64,000 bases of DNA from Cupriavidus sp. P-10 (GTDB lineage: Bacteria; Pseudomonadota; Gammaproteobacteria; Burkholderiales; Burkholderiaceae): the NCBI RefSeq assembly GCF_003402535.2, contig NZ_AP025170.1:868001-932000 (forward strand), given 5' to 3'. Positions 2,502 to 14,552 of this stretch are shown here, in pieces (within the stretch, counting starts at the first letter, position 1; every line of letters starts with the position of its first letter). The notes under the pieces are model-generated. The model was not told the DNA's origin. It saw only the letters and a list, made by a program, of their open reading frames with translations, and ran no database searches. A program made the translations under genes and the position numbers.

Positions 2502-5429
2502 TTAGTGCGCTGGCGCCGCGCGCAGCCGCGCGACGGTGTTCTCCAGGTCCTGCCAGGCGGGTTGGTCGGGGGCAAAGCGCGCTCGCAGGTACTGCGCCAG
2601 CTGCGCGATCTGCCTGTCGTCGAAGGTGTCGGCATAGGCCGGCATCGCGCCCAGTTCACTGTTGGGCGGCGCGGGCATGCCTTGCAGCAGCACCTGGATC
2701 ACGTTGTCAGGCAGCTTGCTGTGCAGGTTGGTGTTGAGTGCGAGCGATGGCTTCACGCCGAACTGCGCGATGCCCTGGTCTGATTGATGGCACACCGCGC
2801 AGGCGCTCTGGTACAGGCGTTCACCGGGACCGCCGAGCGTGCGCGCAGCCTGCGCGCTGCGTCGTTCGAGACTGGCAGCCTGCGCGTCCAGCACGGAAGG
2901 CGCGGGCGGCGGCGTGCCGAATGACGCGACGTAGTGCGCGATCGCGCGCACATCCGATTCGGGCAGCTGCGCGAGTTCTTCCACCACCGGCGCCATCGGC
3001 CCGGCGGCGGCGCCATGATGCGGCGCATAGCCGCCGCGCAGGTAGGTGAACAGCGCCGCTTCGGTCCATGGCACCGGCGCGTGCGAGAGCGCGGTCAGCG
3101 GCGGCGCTTCCCAGTTTTCGGCACTGCCGCCGGTCAGGTACTTGCGGCCGCCTTGCTCGGCGCCGAGTGCGTTGCGCGGGGAATGGCAGGCGCTGCAATG
3201 GCCCAGCCCTTCGGCGAGATACGCGCCGCGGTTCCATTGCGCGGAGCGCGCGGGGTCGGCCTTGAAGGGTTCGTTGCGATGGAACAGCAGGTTCCAGCCC
3301 GCCAGCAGCGGGCGCACGTTGAACGGGAATGCCAGCTGGGTTTGCGGCACTGCTGACTTCACTGGTTCGGCCGACATCAGGTACGCATACAGCGCCTGCA
3401 TGTCGGCGTCGCTGACCTTGGCGAACGCGGTGTAGGGGAAGGCCGGATAAAGGCGTCGCCCGTCGCGGTGGATGCCTTCGCGCATCGCGCGTTCGAAGGC
3501 GGCGAACGACCAGTTGCCGATGCCGGTCTGCACATCGGGCGTGATGTTGGTGCTGTAGACCGTGCCAAAGGGCGTTTCCAGCGGCAGGCCGCCCGCATTC
3601 TTCACGCCGCCGGGGACGGTATGGCATACCGCGCAGTCACCTGCCGAAGCCACCAGGCGGCCGCGCTCCAGCGTGGCTGCGGAATAGAAGCCAGGCTCGG
3701 GCGGGGCGACCGGCGCGATCGGCGCGCGCCACGGCATCAGTGTTGCGCACAGGCCTGCCGCGGTCGCGGCAGCGGCGGCGATCCAGCCGCGCTTGCTGCG
3801 CTTGCCGGCGCGCTTGTCCTCACTCTCGGCCAGCGCAAGCCGGATGCGCTCGGCGCTGAAAGGTGGCGTGCGCAGGCGCACGCCGGTGGCGTCGAAGATG
3901 GCGTTGGCCACGGCGGCCGCGGCAGGCAGCGTATCGGCCGGACCCGCGGCCAGCTGGTCGCGCTCGGTGAGCGTGCCAGCCAGGTGGACTTCCGGCAATA
4001 CTGTGCTGGTTGCGACGGCGGGGAGCGATTGGCTGGCCGGCGCCTCCGTGGCAGGCCAGGTATCGAATGCCGGGCTGGCAGCGGTCAATTGCAGGGTAGC
4101 GTCGGCAACAGCCTGTTCCAGCGAGCGCGCAGCGGGTGTGGCTTGCGCGGACGCCAGCGATTCGCTGTCATGCCCCACCGTCACGCGCGTGACCGCCAGT
4201 TCGCCGGTGGTGCCATCGACTTCGACTTCCGCCACCCATGCCGACCAGCTCTGGCCCGCATCGTGGTCGATGGTGTGCGCATAGGCAAAACCGCGCCCGC
4301 GCCGCACGTTGCCGGCCGGTGCGGTGGCATGCGGGACGGATGGGGTCCAGCCGGCGCGCTCGGTGACCTGTTTGACCAGCGCCGTGCCACGCGCATCGTC
4401 GAGGTGGGCCAGCCGCAGCGCAACCGGATCCGTGCCGGATGCGGTGGCGATTTCGTCGAGATGGGATTCGCGCGCAAAGACATGGGCCCGCGCGGCGGCC
4501 AGCGGTGCGGCATCGAAGGCGGCCACTGCCCCGGCCGTGCCGACATCGACATCGGGAATGCGGTAGGGCGGCATCACTGCGCTGGCTGTGTGGCCGGTGT
4601 CCGTCACGGGCGACGCGGTATGCGTCAGCCACAATGCCAGCGGCACGGGTGGTGCGGCCGTGCCGGCCAGCGTGGCGGCGTAGGCGTCGATGGCTGCGCC
4701 GTTTTGCGCGGTGTCGACATGAACGGCGAGCTGCGCATCGGACAGGCCGATGTCGTCGGCGCACAGCCGCCGCATTACTGGTTTGCCGGCGGCATGGGCC
4801 AGCAATGCGGCGTCGGCGGCTGCGTGATGGGCGAGCAGGGCCGGATCGCCGGCATCGGCAGTTGCCTGCCAGCAGGCCAGCGCGACCTGTTGCGGCGCGA
4901 TGCCCAGCAGCGCGGCCAGTTCTTCGCGCAGCGCGCCCGGGCGCAGGCTCGGCAGCCACACGTGCAGCATGCCGTCGCGCCAGTCCGCGATTGCGGTGCA
5001 AAACGCTTCCGTCCTGGTACCGGCCAGCGGCCACTGGTAGTGCTGCGCGTGGCGCGTGGCGGCGCTGGCGAGCGCGCGGCTCGCGTCACCGCGCTGCACA
5101 ACGGCGTGGCGCGATACCGGGGTTGCCTCCGCGCGCGGCGGTGCCGACCAGCGCGCCTGCAGCGCGCGGACAGCGTTGGCCGCCATGGCATCGCTTTCCG
5201 CGGCAACACCCGTGAACTGGTTGCGAACCACAACTGCGCGCACGCCTGGCAGCGCGAGGGCCGCGTCGCGGTCCGCGCCGAGCAGGCGCGGCACCAGCGG
5301 CTTGCCGTCAAGCCAGCGCAGGCCCGGCGGCGTCAGCGCGTGGCCGACGAGACACATGGACTCAGGCGGCGGCACGTTGCCGGCCAGGGCGCCGGTGTGG
5401 CTGGTTTGCACTGCGAGGCGTTCCGTCAC
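2502..5429 (-). CDS. nicB: NicB-like nicotinate dehydrogenase subunit: degenerate molybdopterin domain fused to triheme cytochrome c
   Basis: A 975-residue protein. Residues 1-530 resemble the rear two-thirds of an isoquinoline-oxidoreductase/NicB-type molybdopterin domain; about 549-566 is a hydrophobic anchor; 580-970 holds three class I cytochrome c domains with CAVCH (599-603), CSACH (745-749) and CAVCH (877-881). In P. putida NicB (about 1190 residues) the same fusion hydroxylates nicotinate to 6-hydroxynicotinate and passes electrons on through its hemes. Here the molybdopterin part lacks the N-terminal GTGxRTALAQ segment, and the GxGES region carrying the catalytic Glu reads AAGPAD (494-499), so catalysis by this chain is doubtful. 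A complete molybdopterin subunit is encoded at 11750-14020. The GTG start overlaps the nicA stop (GTGA), showing tight coupling. Confidence 0.85.
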   Translation of the reverse strand: MTERLAVQTSHTGALAGNVPPPESMCLVGHALTPPGLRWLDGKPLVPRLLGADRDAALALPGVRAVVVRNQFTGVAAESDAMAANAVRALQARWSAPPRAEATPVSRHAVVQRGDASRALASAATRHAQHYQWPLAGTRTEAFCTAIADWRDGMLHVWLPSLRPGALREELAALLGIAPQQVALACWQATADAGDPALLAHHAAADAALLAHAAGKPVMRRLCADDIGLSDAQLAVHVDTAQNGAAIDAYAATLAGTAAPPVPLALWLTHTASPVTDTGHTASAVMPPYRIPDVDVGTAGAVAAFDAAPLAAARAHVFARESHLDEIATASGTDPVALRLAHLDDARGTALVKQVTERAGWTPSVPHATAPAGNVRRGRGFAYAHTIDHDAGQSWSAWVAEVEVDGTTGELAVTRVTVGHDSESLASAQATPAARSLEQAVADATLQLTAASPAFDTWPATEAPASQSLPAVATSTVLPEVHLAGTLTERDQLAAGPADTLPAAAAVANAIFDATGVRLRTPPFSAERIRLALAESEDKRAGKRSKRGWIAAAAATAAGLCATLMPWRAPIAPVAPPEPGFYSAATLERGRLVASAGDCAVCHTVPGGVKNAGGLPLETPFGTVYSTNITPDVQTGIGNWSFAAFERAMREGIHRDGRRLYPAFPYTAFAKVSDADMQALYAYLMSAEPVKSAVPQTQLAFPFNVRPLLAGWNLLFHRNEPFKADPARSAQWNRGAYLAEGLGHCSACHSPRNALGAEQGGRKYLTGGSAENWEAPPLTALSHAPVPWTEAALFTYLRGGYAPHHGAAAGPMAPVVEELAQLPESDVRAIAHYVASFGTPPPAPSVLDAQAASLERRSAQAARTLGGPGERLYQSACAVCHQSDQGIAQFGVKPSLALNTNLHSKLPDNVIQVLLQGMPAPPNSELGAMPAYADTFDDRQIAQLAQYLRARFAPDQPAWQDLENTVARLRAAPAH

Positions 5430-5923
5430 GATGTTGCCCCTTCAGCCGCGCGTCGCATCAGCACCGCCGCGCGCTGCACCGCGCGCACGATTTCCACGTG
5501 CGTGCCGCAGCGGCACAGGTTAAAGCGCAGCGCCTCGCGGATCTGCGCTTCATCGGGATCGGGATTCTGCGCGAGCAGCGCCTTGGCGGTCATGATCATG
5601 CCGTTCAGGCAATAGCCGCATTGCGCGGCCTGCTCGTCGATAAACGCTTGTTGCACGGGATCGGGATGCTCCGCCGTGCCCAGGCCTTCCAGCGTGGTGA
5701 CTGCGTGGCCCACCGCGGCCCTGACCGGCAGCACGCACGAGCGCGCGGGCCGGCCGTCGACCAGCACCGTGCACGCGCCGCACTGGCCCAGCCCGCAACC
5801 GTACTTGGGGCCATTGCAGGCCAGGTCGTTGCGCAGGATATAGAGCAGCGGCGTGTCGGGCGCCACGCTGAGCGTGTGCTCGGCGTGGTTGACTTGTAGC
5901 GTCAGGGGGCGAGGCGTGTTCAT
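5426..5923 (-). CDS. nicA: Nicotinate dehydrogenase [2Fe-2S] subunit NicA
   Basis: A 165-residue two-cluster iron-sulfur protein of the xanthine-dehydrogenase small-subunit family. The N-terminal plant-type ferredoxin cluster is seen as CNGPKYGCGLGQCGAC followed by a fourth Cys; the C-terminal helical domain carries CGYC and CRC for the second cluster. It relays electrons from the molybdenum site, where nicotinate becomes 6-hydroxynicotinate, towards the NicB cytochromes. The start MNTPRPLTLQ was chosen over an upstream in-frame start because it fits the length of P. putida NicA (about 157). It lies between nicC (96 bp upstream) and nicB (overlapping) in one minus-strand operon. Confidence 0.93.
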   Translation of the reverse strand: MNTPRPLTLQVNHAEHTLSVAPDTPLLYILRNDLACNGPKYGCGLGQCGACTVLVDGRPARSCVLPVRAAVGHAVTTLEGLGTAEHPDPVQQAFIDEQAAQCGYCLNGMIMTAKALLAQNPDPDEAQIREALRFNLCRCGTHVEIVRAVQRAAVLMRRAAEGATS

Positions 5924-5954
5924 CGGGGGCGGCAAGTTGCAGATCACGCGGCCG

Positions 5955-5992
5955 GCACGCCGCGCCCCTTCGTGCGAGGGGCTGCGGCGTGC
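5955..5992 (-). other. Strong hairpin between nicC and nicA
   Basis: GCACGCCGCGCCCC pairs with GGGGC-T-GCGGCGTGC (one bulged T) around a 9-nt loop. No T-run follows on the minus strand, so it is unlikely to be a simple terminator. A role in transcript processing, stability or partial attenuation between nicC and nicAB is possible; only the structure is seen. Confidence 0.5.
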
Positions 5993-6019
5993 AGGTTCAG
6001 GTCAGGCCTAAGGTCGCCG

Positions 6020-7283
<1,264 letters not shown>

Positions 7284-7432
7284 GGAAGAAAATGACGATC
7301 CTATGGAAAACCCTTATGACATCATGAATCGCGACGCACAATGCTTGAATACGGTGAATTTGTGCGCTAAAACAGGGATTGATTAATTAAGTAGGCACTG
7401 AACGAGTGAATCGCGCACGGCGCAGATTCTAT

Positions 7433-7461
7433 TTGCCTAGATAAAGTGTGTACACTACAAT
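7433..7461 (+). promoter_or_regulatory. Sigma-70 promoter of nicE-nicD-nicX-nicF
   Basis: TTGCCT (7433-7438), a 17-bp spacer and TACAAT (7456-7461). The architecture mirrors the nicC promoter: the operator 12-mer occupies the end of the spacer and touches the -10. The leader to the nicE GTG is about 65 nt. Confidence 0.72.
7445..7456. promoter_or_regulatory. Operator over the nicE promoter, probable NicR site
   Basis: AGTGT-GT-ACACT, the reverse complement of the site at 7255-7266. It lies between the -35 and -10 of the nicE promoter. Two identical sites on divergent promoters of one pathway support joint repression by one dimeric regulator. Confidence 0.7.
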
Positions 7462-7531
7462 CGATCGCAGCATGCAAGGCCATCCGGGCAGGGCAGGCGG
7501 GTAGACAGACAAACAGATGACGGAGTCGACA

Positions 7532-8284
7532 GTGCAGAAAGTTTTCCGAATCGGCCAGATCGTGCCGAGCTCCAACACCACGATGGAAACCGAGATCCCG
7601 GCGATGCTGGCCGCGCGCCAGCTGGTGCGTCCGGAGCGCTTTACTTTCCACTCAAGCCGCATGCGGATGAAGAAGGTGGTCAAGGAGGAACTGGCGGCGA
7701 TGGATGCCGAGTCCGACCGCTGCGCGGTGGAGCTGAGCGACGCCCGCGTTGACGTGCTCGGTTACGCCTGCCTGGTGGCGATCATGGCGATGGGCCACGG
7801 CTACCACCGCGTGTCGGAGCAGCGCCTGCAGGCGCACACCGCCGAGAACGGCGGCGACGCCCCTGTGATCACCAGCGCCGGCGCGCTGGTCGATGCGCTC
7901 AAGGTGATGGGCGCCAAGCGCATTGCCGTGGTGGCGCCGTACATGAAGCCGCTGACCGAGCTGGTGGTCGACTACATCCGCAACGAAGGCTATGAAGTCG
8001 TGGACTACCGCGCGCTGGAGATCCCCGACAACCTCGACGTCGGCCGCCATGACCCGTCGCGCCTGCCGGAGATCGTTGCGCAGATGAATTTCGCCGATGC
8101 CGACGTCATTGTGCTGTCTGCCTGCGTGCAGATGCCGTCGCTGCCGGCGGTGGCCAAGGTCGAGGCGATGACCGGCAAGCCGGTGGTCACCGCCGCCATC
8201 GCCACCACCTATGCGCTGCTCAAGCGCCTGGGCCTGGAGCCGGTGGTGCCGGGCGCGGGCGCGCTGCTGTCCGGCGCCTACTGA
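7532..8284 (+). CDS. nicE: Maleate cis-trans isomerase NicE
   Basis: Isomerises maleate to fumarate, the last step that feeds nicotinate carbon into the TCA cycle. The protein belongs to the Asp/Glu racemase-like maleate isomerase family: the N-terminal VPSSNTTMETE loop binds substrate, and the two catalytic cysteines appear in GYACLVA (Cys80) and SACVQMP (Cys198), matching the Cys80/Cys198 pair known in this family. The GTG at 7532 is preferred because GGAG lies 7 nt before it and the resulting 250-residue chain starts at the family-typical distance from RIGQIVPSS; an in-frame ATG at 7517 lacks a ribosome site. First gene of the plus-strand operon; nicD follows after 11 bp. Confidence 0.93.
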   Translation: MQKVFRIGQIVPSSNTTMETEIPAMLAARQLVRPERFTFHSSRMRMKKVVKEELAAMDAESDRCAVELSDARVDVLGYACLVAIMAMGHGYHRVSEQRLQAHTAENGGDAPVITSAGALVDALKVMGAKRIAVVAPYMKPLTELVVDYIRNEGYEVVDYRALEIPDNLDVGRHDPSRLPEIVAQMNFADADVIVLSACVQMPSLPAVAKVEAMTGKPVVTAAIATTYALLKRLGLEPVVPGAGALLSGAY

Positions 8285-8295
8285 AGGAGCCGGCC

Positions 8296-9135
8296 ATGAC
8301 GACCAGCACCTTCCTCTACGGCGGCAACGTCCATGCCAACGGCATTCGCCAGCACTACCTGCGTTATGGCGGCGAGGGCGGCCAGGACGGCGCGCGCGCG
8401 CAGCGCGACACCGTGATCATCGTGCCCGGCATCACCAGCCCGGCGGTCACGTGGGGCTTCGTCGGCGAGCAGTTCGGACGGCAGTTCGATACCTATGTGC
8501 TCGACGTGCGCGGCCGCGGCTTGTCGCAGGCCGGCGCGGAACTGGACTACAGCCTCGATGCGCAGGCTGCTGACGTGATCGCGTTTGCCAAAGCGCTCGG
8601 GCTGCAACGCTATGCCATCGTCGGCCATTCGATGGGCGCGCGCATCGGCATCCGCGCCGCACGCAGCAAGCCCGCTGGACTGACGCGGCTGGTGCTGGTC
8701 GATCCGCCCGTCTCGGGCCCGGGCCGCCGTGCGTATCCCGCGCAACTGCCGTGGTACATCGATTCGATCCGGCTGGCACAGCAGGGCATCGACGCGGAAG
8801 GCATGCGCCGCTTCTGCCCCACCTGGACCGAAGACCAGTTGCGCCTGCGTGCGCAATGGCTGCATACCTGCGACGAGCGCGCGATCCTGGCCAGCTTCAA
8901 CGGCTTCCATGAGGACGATATCCACGCCGACCTGCCGCAGGTCGAGGTGCCGGCCCTGCTGATGACCGCGGGCCGCGGCGACGTGATCCGCGAGGAAGAC
9001 GTGCAGGAGATGCGCAAGCTGTTGCCCGCGCTGCTGGTCGCACATGTCGCCAATGCCGGACACATGATCCCGTGGGACGACGAGCCCGGCTTCTACCGCG
9101 CCTTCGGCGACTTCCTCGGCGCGGCGCTGAACTGA
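8296..9135 (+). CDS. nicD: N-formylmaleamate deformylase NicD
   Basis: An alpha/beta hydrolase that releases formate from N-formylmaleamate to give maleamate. In this 279-residue protein the nucleophile elbow is GHSMGA with Ser112, the acid is Asp136 in LVDPP and the base is His256 in AGHMIPW. The spacing of the triad is the same as Ser101/Asp125/His245 of P. putida NicD, shifted by 11 residues because of a longer N-terminus (a charged insertion around residues 26-38). AAGGAG precedes the ATG. It sits between nicE and nicX in one operon. Confidence 0.93.
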   Translation: MTTSTFLYGGNVHANGIRQHYLRYGGEGGQDGARAQRDTVIIVPGITSPAVTWGFVGEQFGRQFDTYVLDVRGRGLSQAGAELDYSLDAQAADVIAFAKALGLQRYAIVGHSMGARIGIRAARSKPAGLTRLVLVDPPVSGPGRRAYPAQLPWYIDSIRLAQQGIDAEGMRRFCPTWTEDQLRLRAQWLHTCDERAILASFNGFHEDDIHADLPQVEVPALLMTAGRGDVIREEDVQEMRKLLPALLVAHVANAGHMIPWDDEPGFYRAFGDFLGAALN

Positions 9136-9160
9136 CCGCTGAACTGATAATGGAGCGAAC

Positions 9161-10249
9161 ATGCCCGTAAGCGATTACGACCTGACCGCGGCGTGGAAGC
9201 AGGTGCTGACGCTGTCCAAGCTGCAGCCGGGGCAGACCGTCACCGTGCTGACCGGCGCGGCCACGCACCCGCAGACGCTGCGCACGGCGATGGTGGCGGC
9301 GCAGTCGATGGGCGCCATCGTCAACCGGCTCGACCTGCCGCCGGTCAATGGCGAGAAGGCGCTCAGCCGCGACGCGCTGGCCTATCTCGGCACCACGCCG
9401 CTGACCGGCAACCCGGCAGCGATCGCCGCGTTGAAAGCAAGCGACCTGGTGCTGGACCTGATGACGCTGCTGTTCTCGCCCGAGCAGCACGAGATCCTGT
9501 CCGGCGGCACAAAAATCCTGCTGGCGGTGGAGCCGCCCGAAGTGCTGGCGCGGCTGGTGCCGACCGAGGCCGACCGCGCCCGCGTCAAGGCTGCCACCGA
9601 GCGGCTGGGCCGCGCGCGCGAGATGCATATCGTGTCTGACGCCGGCATGGACCTGCGCTGCCGCCTGGGTGAATTCCCCGCGATCAGCGAGTACGGCTTT
9701 GTCGACGAGCCCGGCCGTTGGGACCACTGGCCGAGCGGCTTCGTGCTGACCTGGCCGGACGAGGGCGGTACCAACGGCACCATCGTGCTGGACCGCGGCG
9801 ACATCCTGCTGCCGATGAAGTCCTATCTGCAGGCGCCGATCCGCATCACGGTCGAGGCCGGCTACGTGCGCCGCATCGAAGGCGGTGTCGATGCCGAGCT
9901 GCTGGCCGACTATATGGCCTCGTTCAACGACCCGGAAGCGTATGCGATGTCGCATATCGGCTGGGGCCTGCAGCCGCGCGCAAGCTGGTCGGCGCTGGCG
10001 ATGTACGACCGCGAGGCCACCATCGGCATGGACGCGCGCGCCTACGAAGGCAATTTCCTGTGCTCGTTCGGCCCCAACAACGAAGCAGGCGGCAGTCGCA
10101 CCACCGCCTGCCATATCGATATCCCGGTGCGCCACTGCACGGTCAGCCTCGACGGTGAGCCGGTGGTGGTGCGCGGCAAGGTGATGGACGGGCACCATGC
10201 TCCCGCCGCATCGCTCTACAAGGCAGACAAGGACTCTCGCCATGGATGA
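9161..10249 (+). CDS. nicX: 2,5-dihydroxypyridine 5,6-dioxygenase NicX
   Basis: A non-heme Fe(II) ring-cleaving dioxygenase that opens 2,5-dihydroxypyridine to N-formylmaleamate. In this 362-residue protein the metal ligands fall at His265 (SHIGWG), His318 and Asp320 (CHID), the same numbers as in P. putida NicX. The family shows distant similarity to M29 aminopeptidases. The ATG follows GGAG by 6 nt. Its last codons overlap the start of nicF by 8 bp, so translation is probably coupled. Confidence 0.95.
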   Translation: MPVSDYDLTAAWKQVLTLSKLQPGQTVTVLTGAATHPQTLRTAMVAAQSMGAIVNRLDLPPVNGEKALSRDALAYLGTTPLTGNPAAIAALKASDLVLDLMTLLFSPEQHEILSGGTKILLAVEPPEVLARLVPTEADRARVKAATERLGRAREMHIVSDAGMDLRCRLGEFPAISEYGFVDEPGRWDHWPSGFVLTWPDEGGTNGTIVLDRGDILLPMKSYLQAPIRITVEAGYVRRIEGGVDAELLADYMASFNDPEAYAMSHIGWGLQPRASWSALAMYDREATIGMDARAYEGNFLCSFGPNNEAGGSRTTACHIDIPVRHCTVSLDGEPVVVRGKVMDGHHAPAASLYKADKDSRHG

Positions 10250-10895
10250 CGCAGTGCAGACCTACCAGCGCCAGGGCTTCGGCGCGTCGATGGAACTCAA
10301 GGCGCCGTATGGCCTGCTGATCATCGACTTCGTCAACGGCTTTGCCGACCCGGCGGTATTCGGCGGCGGCAATATCCCCGAAGCCATCCGCAACACCCAG
10401 CCGCTGTTGCGCGCCGCGCGCGAGCAGGGCTGGCCGGTGGCGCACAGCCGCATCGTGTTCGCCGACGACGACAGCGACCACAATATCTTCACGCTGAAGG
10501 TGCCCGGCATGCTGACGCTGAAGGAAGACGGCCACAACAGCCAGATCGTGCCCGAGCTGGCGCCCGCGCCGGGCGAACTGGTGGTGCGCAAGACGGTGCC
10601 GTCGGCGTTCTTCGGCACCTCGCTGGCGGCGTGGCTGACGCAGCGCGGCGTGCAGACGCTGCTGGTGGCGGGCTGCGTGACCAGCGGCTGCGTGCGCGCC
10701 AGCGTGGTCGATGCGATGTCGCTGGGCTTCCGTCCGCTGGTGGTGTCCGACTGCGTGGGCGACCGCGCCATCGGCCCGCACGATGCCAACCTGTTCGACA
10801 TGGCGCAGAAGTACGCGACCGTGCTCACGCGCGACGAAGCGCTGGCGCAAGTGGCGGGCGAGGGTGAGGGTGAAGGCGCTCGCGCCGCCGCCTGA
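10242..10895 (+). CDS. nicF: Maleamate amidohydrolase NicF
   Basis: A cysteine hydrolase of the isochorismatase superfamily that converts maleamate to maleate and ammonia. The 217-residue protein shows the family triad: Asp29 in LLIIDFVNGF, Lys117 in VVRKTVPSAF and the nucleophile Cys150 in AGCVTSGCVRAS, preceded by the usual cis-peptide V-T. The ATG at 10242 is inside the end of nicX and follows AAGGA; the product then has the P. putida-like length. It ends the nicEDXF operon and converges on the TetR gene, whose stop lies 27 bp beyond. Confidence 0.94.
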   Translation: MDDAVQTYQRQGFGASMELKAPYGLLIIDFVNGFADPAVFGGGNIPEAIRNTQPLLRAAREQGWPVAHSRIVFADDDSDHNIFTLKVPGMLTLKEDGHNSQIVPELAPAPGELVVRKTVPSAFFGTSLAAWLTQRGVQTLLVAGCVTSGCVRASVVDAMSLGFRPLVVSDCVGDRAIGPHDANLFDMAQKYATVLTRDEALAQVAGEGEGEGARAAA

Positions 10896-10922
10896 GCGGC
10901 GACGGTGCGCCGGCGCGGCGTT

Positions 10923-11678
10923 TCAGCCTGCAGCCGCCCGCCTGGTGCGTGCGGTCTTGCGCGCCGGCGTAGCCGGCGGCACGCGGGCTTCCGGCACGGC
11001 GCCGGGCACCGACACCGTGCGCAGCACTGTCTGCTGGATCACATCGCGCCAGTGCGCCAGCGCGGGCGGGCTCATCATGGCCTCGCCCAGGAAGGCGCCG
11101 AGCGTATGATGGTTGGAGTTGTAGAAGTAACCGAGCGAAGCGATCACCAGGTAGACATCGCGCGCGCCGATCTCTGGACGGAACAACTCCGCGGACTTGC
11201 CGCGCGTGAGGATCCCGTCGAGCACCGACAGCGCGTAGCTGGAGATTTCCTTGAGCCGGACCGACTTCTTCGCGTGCTTGCCCTGGCTCATGTTCTCGCT
11301 GGACAGGATCGCAACGAACTCGGGGTGGTCGAGGTAGTACTGCCAGATGAAGTCGACCAGTTGCGACAGCGCGCGCACGGGATCGGCGGCGTCGAGTTCT
11401 TGCTCGAGCTGCTGCTCGGCTTCGTTGAGCTGCAGGTAGATGGTCTCCAGCACTTCGACAAACAGCTTTTCCTTGCTGCCGAAGTAGTAGTAGATCATCC
11501 GGTCGTAGGTCTTGGCCAGCGACGAAATACGCTCGATGCGGCCACCGTCGTAGCCGCGCTGGGCGAAGACCTTGATGGCCGCTTTCAGGATGCGGTCGCG
11601 GCTGTCCTGCGCTTGCCTGGCCCGGGTGCCGGGAGCCGCCCGCTTGGCGGCTGGCTTCGACGCGGTGTTGATCGTCAT
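10923..11678 (-). CDS. nicS: TetR-family regulator, NicS-like
   Basis: A 251-residue regulator. Residues about 25-75 form the TetR helix-turn-helix (RDRILKAAIKVFAQRGYDG, then TYDRMIYYYFGSKEKLF), followed by an all-helical ligand domain with the C-terminal half characteristic of NicS/RutR-like proteins (HPEFVAILSSENM, VIASLGYFYNSN). The tail beyond residue 225 is Ala/Arg/Pro-rich and probably disordered. In P. putida NicS represses nicAB and responds to nicotinate and 6-hydroxynicotinate. Here it is divergent, over 71 bp, from the full-length molybdopterin subunit gene, which supports a similar role. The symbol rests on family resemblance plus context. Confidence 0.75.
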   Translation of the reverse strand: MTINTASKPAAKRAAPGTRARQAQDSRDRILKAAIKVFAQRGYDGGRIERISSLAKTYDRMIYYYFGSKEKLFVEVLETIYLQLNEAEQQLEQELDAADPVRALSQLVDFIWQYYLDHPEFVAILSSENMSQGKHAKKSVRLKEISSYALSVLDGILTRGKSAELFRPEIGARDVYLVIASLGYFYNSNHHTLGAFLGEAMMSPPALAHWRDVIQQTVLRTVSVPGAVPEARVPPATPARKTARTRRAAAG

Positions 11679-11749
11679 GATGGTTGGGTGGCTCTGACTC
11701 TGTTGGCTGGCAGTATAACGGCGCCCCCGTTGAAGGAGATTGGAAGACG

Positions 11750-14020
11750 ATGACGGCAACGACCCTGCAACCCGTGGAACAGGCCGATCCCGCCACGCCC
11801 CGCGCGCTGCGGCTGGCACTGCTGCAGGCAACCGGTGTGCTGCTGGTCACGCGCGCGCCGCAGGCGGCGGCGCGTCCCGCGCCCGGCCAGCCCGGCGCGG
11901 CGTCGGATTACGTGCCGGCGCTGCCCGATATCTTTATCGCCGTCCGTGACAGTGGCGAGGTGCTGGCCTTCAACGGCCATGTCGACCTTGGCACCGGCAT
12001 CCGCACGGCGCTGGCGCAGATCGTGGCGGAAGAACTCGACGTGCCGCTGTCGCAGGTGCGCATGGTGCTCGGCCATACCGAAGCGACCCCTAACCAGGGG
12101 CCAACCATCGCCAGCGCATCGATCCAGATTTCCGCAATCCCGCTGCGCCGTGCCGCGGCGCAGGCCCGCGCGTGGCTGCTGGCGCGCGCCGCACAACAGC
12201 TTGGCGTGGCGCCCGACCAGCTCGAAGCGCAGGATGGCGAGTTCCGCGTGCGCGGGTCCGACGCCCCCATCGGCTATGGCACGCTGGTGCAAGGCGAGCA
12301 TGTGGCGCTGCCGCTGGCCGACGACGTGCCGATCAAGCCGGTGGAGTCCTACCGCATCGTCGGCCGCTCGGCTGGCCGCGTCGATATCCCCGCCAAGGCG
12401 CGCGGCGTGCTGACCTTCGTCCACGATGTGCGCGTGCCCGGCATGCTGCATGGGCGCGTGGTGCGGCCGCCGTATGCTGGCCGCGACAGCGGCGACTTCG
12501 TCGGCAACAGCCTGCTCGCGGTCGACCGCGAATCGGTGCGCGATGTGCCGGGCCTGGTCGATGTGGTGGTGCAGGGCGACTTCGTAGGCGTGGTGGCCGA
12601 GCGCGAAGAGTATGCGGTGCTGGCCGCGCGCAAGCTGCGGGTGCAGTGGAAGGCGGTACCGCCAATGCCGTCGCTTGCTGACCCTGAACCCGCGCTACGC
12701 GCCAACCCGGCGACGCGGCGCGAACTGTTGAACGACGGCGAGATGCCTCCGGCCGGGGCCGGCAAGACGCTGGATCGGCACTACGTCTGGCCATACCAGA
12801 TGCATGGCTCGATTGGCCCGTCGTGCGCGGTCGCCGACTGGCATGAGGATGGCCTGACGGTATGGTCGGGCACGCAGAACCCGCATGTGCTGCGCATCGA
12901 CCTGGCACGCCTGTGCGGGCTGGGCGAGGACAGCATCGAGATCGTGCGCATGGAAGCCGCCGGCTGCTATGGCCGCAATTGCGCGGACGATGTCTGCGCC
13001 GATGCCGCGCTGCTGTCGCGCGCCGTGGGGCGGCCCGTTCGCGTGCAGCTGTCGCGCGAGCAGGAACACCTGTGGGAGCCCAAGGGCGCGGCCCAGTTGA
13101 TGGATGTCAGCGCAACGCTCGGCGCCGACGGTGAACTGCTCGGCTATGACTTCACCAGCCGCTATCCGTCCAACGATGCGCCGACGCTGGCGCTGGTGCT
13201 TGCCGGCATCGTGCCCAACGCGCCGCGCACGCTGGAGATGGGCGACCGCACCGCGGTGCCGCCGTATGCCTACCGCGCGCGCCGCATCGGCTGTGATGAC
13301 ACGCCCGCCATCGTGCGTGCGTCATGGTTGCGTGGCGTGTCGGCGCTGCCGAATTCCTTCGCGCATGAATGCGTGATCGATGAACTCGCCGCCGAAGCCG
13401 GTATGGATCCGATTGATTTCCGGCTGCGCCATTTGCCGGACCCGCGCGCCGCCGAACTGCTGCACGCGGTGGCCGACGCGGCGGACTGGCAGCGGGGCGC
13501 GCACGGTTCGCGTGGCAGCGCCGGCGCCGACGGTATGCTGCGCGGGCGCGGCGTTGCCTACGCGCGCTATATCCACAGCCGCTTCCCGGGCTTCGGCGCG
13601 GCGTGGGCGGCATGGGTGGTCGACGTGGCGGTGGAAGCGGCAACGGGCCGCATCACCGTGCAAAAGCTGGTGGTCGGGCAGGACACGGGCATGATGGTGA
13701 ATCCGGACGGCGTGCGCCACCAGATCCACGGGAACGTGGTGCAGACCTTGAGCCGGGTGTTGAAGGAGCAGGTGCGCTTCGACGCCGATGGTGTCGCCAG
13801 CCGCGAGTGGGGCAGCTATCCGTTGCTCACTTTCCCTGAGATTCCACCGATCGAGGTGGTGCTGATGCCGCGGCAGGAGGAGCCGCCGATGGGGGCAGGG
13901 GAGTCGGCATCGCTGCCGGGCGCGCCGGCAATTGCCAATGCGCTGTTCGATGCGATCGGGGTGCGGCTGCGGCGGCCGCCGTTCGTGCCGGAGACGGTGT
14001 TGGCGGCGTTGCGGAGCTGA
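11750..14020 (+). CDS. Stand-alone molybdopterin subunit, NicB/isoquinoline oxidoreductase type
   Basis: A 756-residue molybdenum hydroxylase large subunit without cytochrome domains. It holds the complete domain: the N-terminal segment HVDLGTGIRTALAQIVAEEL (residues about 77-96), the hammerhead region RPPYAGRD, the AAGCYGRN loop equivalent to the GGGFGR cofactor loop, and near the C-terminus PPMGAGESASLPGAPAIANA with the catalytic Glu in GES. Those elements are missing or altered in the NicB fusion at 2502-5429, so this chain probably supplies the active molybdenum site of nicotinate dehydrogenase. It may instead act on another N-heterocycle. No Tat signal is evident, so it probably works in the cytosol. 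The ATG follows GAAGGAG; the NicS-like gene diverges upstream. Confidence 0.85.
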   Translation: MTATTLQPVEQADPATPRALRLALLQATGVLLVTRAPQAAARPAPGQPGAASDYVPALPDIFIAVRDSGEVLAFNGHVDLGTGIRTALAQIVAEELDVPLSQVRMVLGHTEATPNQGPTIASASIQISAIPLRRAAAQARAWLLARAAQQLGVAPDQLEAQDGEFRVRGSDAPIGYGTLVQGEHVALPLADDVPIKPVESYRIVGRSAGRVDIPAKARGVLTFVHDVRVPGMLHGRVVRPPYAGRDSGDFVGNSLLAVDRESVRDVPGLVDVVVQGDFVGVVAEREEYAVLAARKLRVQWKAVPPMPSLADPEPALRANPATRRELLNDGEMPPAGAGKTLDRHYVWPYQMHGSIGPSCAVADWHEDGLTVWSGTQNPHVLRIDLARLCGLGEDSIEIVRMEAAGCYGRNCADDVCADAALLSRAVGRPVRVQLSREQEHLWEPKGAAQLMDVSATLGADGELLGYDFTSRYPSNDAPTLALVLAGIVPNAPRTLEMGDRTAVPPYAYRARRIGCDDTPAIVRASWLRGVSALPNSFAHECVIDELAAEAGMDPIDFRLRHLPDPRAAELLHAVADAADWQRGAHGSRGSAGADGMLRGRGVAYARYIHSRFPGFGAAWAAWVVDVAVEAATGRITVQKLVVGQDTGMMVNPDGVRHQIHGNVVQTLSRVLKEQVRFDADGVASREWGSYPLLTFPEIPPIEVVLMPRQEEPPMGAGESASLPGAPAIANALFDAIGVRLRRPPFVPETVLAALRS

Positions 14021-14063: not shown

Positions 14064-14552
14064 TCACACGCCGCCATTCCCCTCATCAATCTCGCTCATC
14101 TTCCGCAGTAGATAAGTCACCGCCACCCGCTCTGCCGGGTTCAAACCGCCAAACGTCTGCTCCGAAATCTGCCTGGCAAACGGCACCGTCTCATCGATCA
14201 ACGCCAGCCCCCCGGGCGTCACCGTCACCACCACCTTGCGCCGGTCGTTCGGGTCATGCGACACCGCCACCAGCTTGCGCGCCTTCAGCCGCTCGATGAT
14301 GCCGCGCACTGTCGCCTGGTCGATCGCCGTGGCGCGTACCACTTCATTGAGCGAACACGGCTGCCGGTCCCTGACCGCGCACAGCACCACGAACTGCGCC
14401 GCAGTGAGCTGCGAATCCGGGATGGTCTGCTGGAAGATCGCCACGTGGCGCTGGTAGGCGCGCCGCAGCAGGTGGCCGACCTGCTCGGTGAAATCGTAGT
14501 CGGGGGCGGTCTCGTCTGATGACGATGCGGAGGATGCGGAGGGGTTGGGCAC
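14064..14552 (-). CDS. nicR: MarR-family regulator, NicR-like
   Basis: A 162-residue winged-helix repressor. A Ser-rich N-terminal tail precedes the dimerisation helix (FTEQVGHLLRRAYQRHVAIF); the recognition region reads SLNEVVRATAIDQATVRGIIERL and the wing SHDPNDRRKVVVTVT. In P. putida NicR represses the nicC and nicX promoters and 6-hydroxynicotinate lifts repression. The twin operators in the nicC/nicE intergenic region suit such a dimer. The gene follows the Bug-type binding protein gene on the same strand after 62 bp and converges on the molybdopterin subunit gene. Function by homology is strong for the family and fairly strong for NicR. Confidence 0.8.
   Translation of the reverse strand: MPNPSASSASSSDETAPDYDFTEQVGHLLRRAYQRHVAIFQQTIPDSQLTAAQFVVLCAVRDRQPCSLNEVVRATAIDQATVRGIIERLKARKLVAVSHDPNDRRKVVVTVTPGGLALIDETVPFARQISEQTFGGLNPAERVAVTYLLRKMSEIDEGNGGV

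Follow-up and report, generated by a model that had tools for sequence, protein, structure and literature searches.

A degenerate molybdenum domain on the cytochrome subunit of a probable three-part nicotinate hydroxylase in Cupriavidus sp. P-10 and related loci

Bacterial genomes can contain two genes named ‘nicotinate dehydrogenase subunit B’, which raises the question of which product should be catalytic and why the other is kept. We addressed this question in a stretch of 64,000 nucleotides from Cupriavidus sp. P-10 (the window; contig NZ_AP025170.1, positions 868,001 to 932,000) that contains a complete nic cluster (Table 1). One of the two genes encodes a fusion protein, NicB2, in which a degenerate molybdenum (Mo) domain is followed by one predicted membrane helix and a tri-heme cytochrome c; the other encodes a separate Mo subunit, NicB1, with all of its motifs intact. 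Judging from sequence, catalysis has very probably moved to NicB1. The three-part NicA/NicB1/NicB2 enzyme is already known; what is added here, from sequence comparison, is the dead Mo domain on NicB2. It is a widespread and apparently ancient case in which a domain of the xanthine-oxidase family has become a non-catalytic component. The assignment of the catalytic subunit matters for enzyme work toward 6-hydroxynicotinate, and the membrane side of nicotinate hydroxylation and the electron path to cytochrome c become directly testable by experiment.

Lost and retained motifs in the two subunits

Both open reading frames (ORFs) lie where a first-pass annotation of the window had placed them, and the fusion has the 975 residues and three CxxCH sites described there (residues 599–603, 745–749 and 877–881). 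In Pfam, the fusion matched cytochrome c domains and, weakly, MoCoBD_1 (E = 3e-7), and MoCoBD_2 was not found in it. When aligned with NicB1 and full-length fusions, it lacked the first ≈210–230 residues, including the HVDLGTGIRTALAQ and PNQGPTIAS motifs, in agreement with the annotated loss of the N-terminal Mo segment. The position of the GCYGRN cofactor loop reads ATADAGDP, RASWLRG is replaced by approximately FDAAPL, QIHGN by SLEQA and GAGES by AAGPA (within the AAGPAD already noted in the annotation), and Pro497 occupies the position of the catalytic Glu, although the exact letters of these replacements depend on the alignment. The annotation had also described the cofactor loop as replaced by an Ala-rich stretch. 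The replacement of the loop stands, but the Ala-rich helix that follows it (≈200–216) is retained homologous sequence that is Ala-rich in NicB1 too. Neither the lost cofactor and active-site motifs nor an intact catalytic Glu was found elsewhere along the aligned fusion chain, in keeping with the annotation's view of the fused domain as non-catalytic. The window fusion thus lacks the intact motifs and catalytic Glu of a P. putida-type catalytic NicB; it shares with that type a membrane helix, called here by hydropathy only, and the three heme c sites that follow it.

NicB1 has the features expected of the large subunit of a xanthine-oxidase-family Mo hydroxylase: both MoCoBD domains (MoCoBD_1, E = 7e-28; MoCoBD_2 in two stretches, E = 2e-40), the cofactor loops and the catalytic Glu. 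The annotated retention of the Mo motifs in this 756-residue protein was thereby borne out by alignment and Pfam. When the genome that holds the window was searched with the fusion, the best match to its Mo domain, apart from the fusion itself, was NicB1 (31% over residues 28–540). The degenerate domain, hereafter the pseudo domain, is still predicted to adopt a Mo-domain fold and contains three conserved blocks (Table 1), which also occur in active enzymes and do not coincide with the cofactor and active-site motifs.

The order of Mo domain, helix and tri-heme cytochrome is the same as in P. putida NicB, which we take to carry Mo and cytochromes in one chain. The Pseudomonas BYT-5 plasmid cluster, standing in for P. 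putida KT2440, has the intact version: its fused Mo domain has every motif, and the fetched locus contains no separate subunit. P. putida NicAB is described as a two-component enzyme in PMC10269826, which also reports a tripartite NicA/NicB1/NicB2 nicotinate hydroxylase in Burkholderia gladioli and Bordetella; Delftia is listed as having one in PMC4572682. The window has the same three genes (NicA, a separate Mo subunit and a cytochrome subunit) in a cluster with nicC, D, E, F and X, and NicB2 of those organisms is presumably of the same type. The accessible parts of these two accounts make no mention of a dead Mo domain on NicB2, and a literature search turned up no description of a degenerate NicB2 domain, although we do not claim its absence from print.

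A second comparison is with the NdhSLM enzyme of Comamonas testosteroni, which also has three separate parts and whose third subunit is reportedly a cytochrome. A review gives NdhS, NdhL and NdhM masses of 21, 82 and 46 kDa and calls the third a flavoprotein (PMC10331938); strain KF-1 is likewise said to have NdhSLM orthologues (PMC3746432). At 46 kDa, the third subunit is too small to include a pseudo domain, whereas the window fusion has ≈545 extra residues ahead of its cytochrome part. Among solved structures, the membrane aldehyde dehydrogenase of Gluconobacter (8gy3) gives the best sequence match to both proteins, with E = 5e-101 against the cytochrome part and E = 4e-54 against NicB1; it differs in having separate chains, a twin-arginine (RR) motif resembling a twin-arginine translocation (Tat) signal at the start of its Mo chain, and no pseudo domain. 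In NuoG/Nqo3 of respiratory complex I, a molybdoenzyme domain without cofactor has been kept as structure, but that domain belongs to another Mo-enzyme family, the DMSO reductase type.

Pairing of degenerate fusions with NicB1, and their origin

A search of 399 Burkholderiales genomes with the fusion (E = 1e-85) gave 26 places in 23 genomes, that is, the window plus 20 plus 5 further loci, all of which were fetched. An alignment of NicX was then used to fetch 80 named loci (the best 80 of 382); 39 of these carry the fusion gene, and the other 41 are second maleamate-type clusters, contig ends or loci in which the fusion was not found. Many of the 80 (L048–L067 and others) resemble nicE-D-X-F clusters but lack nicC and NicB; several have a NicA-like gene nearby, and these clusters may belong to picolinate or hydroxypyridine pathways.

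The 53 loci classified (the window, 13 of L005–L024 and 39 of L025–L104) comprise 47 degenerate and 6 intact fusions; at least one pair among the 47 is a likely duplicate (L014 and L080). The co-occurrence is strict: NicB1 accompanies 47/47 degenerate fusions. Its sequence is cut by the end of the locus or contig in L005 and L051, and for L016 it was located by searching the whole genome, since most of it falls beyond the bounds of the locus. All 44 complete sequences among the 46 aligned NicB1 partners retain the catalytic Glu. The 39 named degenerate loci belong to Burkholderiaceae (27), Comamonadaceae (6), Alcaligenaceae (3) and Oxalobacteraceae (2), with one not assigned to a family. A second survey covered 250 genomes of another family, Halomonas-like by protein relatives. 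Matches were found in 54, and 42 of these have a separate Mo gene together with a cytochrome fusion that matches from well inside the Mo domain of the query. All ten of the clusters with nicC that we read there combine a degenerate fusion with an intact NicB1. One of the ten fusions, that of L118, is interrupted by a stop within its cytochrome part although its NicB1 is intact, reflecting either a draft error or a recent loss.

Intact fusions show the converse. Whole-genome searches of the six Burkholderiales genomes found no second Mo subunit at ≥60% identity, although one has a 41% relative. The plasmid nic clusters of Pseudomonas BYT-5, Pantoea dispersa and Azospirillum lipoferum also have an intact fusion, and a separate Mo subunit was not found in the fetched 16–28 kb. 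In all, nine intact fusions are without a close separate subunit, as checked in the whole genome for six and in the fetched stretch only for three. Among 193 fusion proteins from a protein search (at least two CxxCH sites, more than 600 residues), 57 keep at least 6/7 motifs and were counted as intact, 135 keep none, and one, a fragment, keeps three. Because the motif state is all-or-none, the loss is not a matter of chance.

We considered whether NicB1 might instead be part of another enzyme, with the fusion itself hydroxylating nicotinate through an unrecognized site. That nicB1 is not adjacent to nicA and nicB2 in the window would suit such an arrangement, but it is hard to reconcile with the loss of all motifs in 47/47 fusions, the presence of NicB1 in 47/47 clusters and the intact fusions, including those of the Pseudomonas, Pantoea and Azospirillum nic clusters, that do without NicB1; we regard it as highly improbable. 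The transfer of catalysis to the separate subunit, proposed in the first-pass annotation, is strongly supported by the pairing in 47/47 Burkholderiales loci and 10/10 Halomonas-like nic clusters, and NicB1 would accordingly be the catalyst in vivo. The same annotation had called the arrangement unusual, a view that finds no support here, as it is common in the clusters read and the tripartite enzyme has already been published.

A tree built on a chosen subset of rows placed the pseudo domains of Burkholderiales and Halomonas-like loci in one clade (Shimodaira–Hasegawa-like approximate likelihood ratio test, SH-aLRT, 97) and the NicB1s of both groups in another (90), among intact fused Mo domains. 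In the first tree, for which 19 of the 47 pseudo rows were chosen, the pseudo clade lay outside on a long branch. The tree with the two clades was built later; it dropped seven rows of the first (two separate-gene rows and five pseudo rows, of which four had been flagged as long) and added eight of the ten Halomonas-like loci. In it, the pseudo row L069 stood apart from the other Burkholderiales pseudo rows. The approximately unbiased (AU) test, with three further pseudo rows dropped, gave p = 0.46 for the pseudo domains and NicB1s held together and p = 0.57 for NicB1s with intact fusions, and so did not separate the two placements. In the cytochrome tree, the cytochromes of degenerate fusions form one clade (91) beside the intact ones (85), with modest support. 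The N-terminal domain of NicB2 probably descends from a catalytic Mo domain whose cofactor site was lost once, long ago.

Membrane topology, selection and the role of the pseudo domain

The predicted membrane helix of the fusion coincides in position with the start of 8gy3 chain A (from residue 548 on in the model). Its hydropathy score of 1.38 is barely above that of other stretches of the Ala-rich domain (1.25), and it is outscored by another stretch in L102 and L007. We compared the fusions with relatives in which the cytochrome is encoded by a separate gene, loci that are probably of the Comamonas NdhSLM type. These have at most 194 residues ahead of the cytochrome match (a stop-to-stop upper bound), and so no pseudo domain. 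Tat-like signals were counted with one script for separate-gene, NicB1 and intact-fusion groups, replacing an earlier count with a narrower anchor (7/10). Of the 21 separate-gene loci with a Mo gene found, 20 have an RR motif on the Mo subunit, the exception being L128, in which the Mo gene is in two pieces; the hydrophobic core score was ≥1.5 in 17/21 and ≥1.1 in 20/21. Two other loci, L024 and L126 (G237:C5), have a cytochrome gene of this family, and no Mo gene was found in the fetched 15–20 kb.

No NicB1, that of the window included, has a Tat-like motif with a hydrophobic core (0/60; RR alone in 7/60), and neither do the intact fusions (0/9; three RR matches, all coreless). A coreless RRxL-type motif occurs in NicB1 of L064, L074, L051, L078, L079 and L090, and doubtfully in L015, where it is probably upstream noise. 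These motifs look like Tat vestiges, which suggests that catalysis moved from the periplasm to the cytoplasm in this lineage. We infer that the Mo part is cytoplasmic in the NicB lineage and that the N-terminal pseudo domain is cytoplasmic as well. Because the Mo part would be cytoplasmic, the pseudo domain would be the only sizeable part of the cytochrome subunit within reach of NicA and NicB1, which fits docking.

The explanation that we favor, with somewhat better than even confidence, is a three-part enzyme in which NicB1 is catalytic and the pseudo domain serves as a dock on the cytoplasmic face. The [2Fe-2S] subunit NicA and the catalytic Mo subunit NicB1 would form a cytoplasmic pair that hydroxylates nicotinate; the pseudo domain, tethered to the membrane through the helix that comes after it, would bind this pair on the cytoplasmic face; and docking would give electrons access to the respiratory chain and to the periplasmic hemes of NicB2. 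That the pseudo domain persists as a docking scaffold, as first proposed in the annotation, is plausible in view of the topology, the kept blocks and purifying selection.

The evidence for such selection comes from the ratio of nonsynonymous to synonymous substitution rates (dN/dS). Over 13 Cupriavidus loci (78 pairs), dN/dS was 0.29 for the pseudo domain, 0.11 for the cytochromes and 0.13 for NicB1; in the eight closest pairs the pseudo domain ranged from 0.14 to 0.40. Five further groups gave 0.22–0.39, 0.07–0.17 and 0.09–0.25, respectively. The intact fusions, intended as a control, gave high values (0.35 for the Mo part and 0.42 for the cytochromes; 10 pairs). The closest pair gave 0.17 and 0.21, respectively, and in the other pairs dN was roughly two- to fourfold higher while dS was almost the same. 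Since dN rises while dS is nearly constant, synonymous sites were taken as saturated and this control was set aside; by the same token, the values that distant pairs gave for the pseudo domain may be overestimates. On these sequences, the pseudo domain is under purifying but relaxed selection. Mirror-tree correlations were 0.97 for pseudo domain and NicB1 and 0.96 for cytochrome and NicB1; the second being almost as high, they reflect only shared descent and were rejected as a signal of coevolution.

Several points weigh against a docking role. The dN/dS of the pseudo domain is 1.8–3.0 times that of the cytochromes and 1.2–2.4 times that of NicB1, and in intact fusions the contrast is reversed, with dN lower in the Mo part than in the cytochromes in 10/10 pairs. 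The domain is also shortened in Burkholderia: in the shortest complete fusions examined (P0074/75/77), the first heme site is at about residue 429 instead of 599. All three features fit slow decay too. The existence of separate-gene relatives with bare cytochromes means that the domain is not needed in every such three-part enzyme. The association between Tat signal and pseudo domain, though clean, may reflect a single evolutionary change, and the Tat and membrane-helix calls derive from motifs and hydropathy alone. Finally, with a cytoplasmic Mo/Fe–S part and periplasmic hemes, electrons would have to cross the membrane, and the sequence reveals no route.

These points bring up the possibility of a slowly decaying relic, in which NicB1 took over catalysis and the remnant persists solely on account of its place ahead of the membrane helix and the need to avoid misfolding. 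The relaxation of selection relative to the partners, a mean protein distance of 0.61 against 0.31–0.32 (43 loci), the shortening in Burkholderia and the bare-cytochrome relatives all favor it. However, dN/dS of the domain (0.14–0.40) stays well under 1, no stop codon was found inside the domain in 47 loci, and the domain, with an apparent single old origin, has been retained across at least four families and a second order. Even P0074/75/77 retain the three blocks, which still model as helices and sheet. Furthermore, none of the clusters read that have a nicC relative scoring over 100 bits carries a bare cytochrome; the separate-gene locus L019 has a distant, 27% NicC-like ORF. We consider the relic possible but unlikely.

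A pseudo-heterodimer, with the pseudo domain as its non-catalytic half, is likewise a rather doubtful proposal. Here NicB1 would have kept the chemistry, while its cytochrome-tied partner became a cytoplasmic membrane receptor after loss of the Tat signal in an ancestor and a shift of catalysis from periplasm to cytoplasm, with electrons crossing the membrane by a novel route, perhaps via quinone. The pseudo domain might also have a job other than docking, such as aiding cofactor loading or regulating activity. A well-modelled domain that has been kept would be consistent with this, but the parts lost are the cofactor and active-site motifs and the conserved blocks are those common to active enzymes, outside the lost motifs, so that such a role appears improbable.

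Organization of the nic cluster

Besides the genes for the three subunits, the window contains the rest of the nicotinate pathway, with gene names assigned by similarity, shared clusters and, in part, what we take to be the P. putida gene order. The minus strand has a transporter gene, the fusion gene, nicA and nicC, and the 3′ end of nicA overlaps the start of the fusion gene.

Table 1. Features of the nic cluster in the window. Residue numbers refer to the fusion protein; pLDDT, predicted local distance difference test.
Feature	Positions	Strand	Basis
NicB2-type fusion, 975 residues	2502..5429	-	ORF list, Pfam, alignment, model
Tri-heme cytochrome c part, residues 583–955, like 8gy3 chain A	2565..3683	-	Pfam, structure match
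Predicted membrane helix, residues ~548–566, after KRSKR	3732..3788	-	hydropathy; model helix 550–564
Fusion gene part ahead of the helix	3795..5429	-	model: 38 of first 55 ten-residue blocks with mean pLDDT ≥80
Conserved block 3, residues 501–524, LPAAAAxANAIFDATGVRLRxPPF	3858..3929	-	alignment
GAGES position, AAGPAD (residues 494–499)	3933..3950	-	alignment
Conserved block 2, residues 376–420, RGRGFAYA...SWSAWVAEVEVDGTTG...VTVGH	4170..4304	-	alignment
Conserved block 1, residues 316–343, VFARESxxDE...DPVxLRL	4401..4484	-	alignment
GCYGRN position, ATADAGDP (residues ~189–196)	4842..4865	-	alignment
NicA, [2Fe-2S] subunit	5426..5947	-	ORF list, Pfam
nicC	6020-7207	-	similarity, cluster order
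nicE	7517-8284	+	similarity, cluster order
nicD	8296-9135	+	similarity, cluster order
nicX	9161-10249	+	similarity, cluster order
nicF	10197-10895	+	similarity, cluster order
TetR-family regulator, divergent from nicB1	10923..11678	-	ORF list, Pfam, comparison of loci
NicB1, separate Mo subunit, 756 residues, all motifs intact	11750..14020	+	Pfam, alignment
NicB1 GCYGRN	12962-12979	+	alignment
NicB1 GAGES	13892-13906	+	alignment
MarR-family regulator, NicR/BpsR-like by family and position	14064..14552	-	ORF list, Pfam

The start of the TetR-family gene at 11678 is a proposal; a longer ORF to 11831 would run into nicB1. The first-pass annotation had taken this divergent regulator as support for joint use of the subunits, an argument that turned out to be weak: the gene lies between nicF and nicB1 in Cupriavidus loci only (and is absent in Cupriavidus L045), and a TetR relative at another position occurs in two other loci. 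In genera other than Cupriavidus, nicB1 is mostly downstream of nicF on the same strand, and this position ties it to the nic pathway better than the TetR gene does. In L103 (Advenella incenata), nicB1 is placed between nicA and nicD instead of after nicF; of all pseudo domains in the first tree, that of L103 has the longest branch.

An NCBIfam scan of nine window proteins gave no family above its cut-off among the matches listed. At the protein level, the fusion shares 92% identity with a sequence from C. oxalaticus. A 715-residue ORF lies antisense to the fusion gene (window 3468-5615, plus strand) and is probably a by-product of the high G+C content (≈67%).

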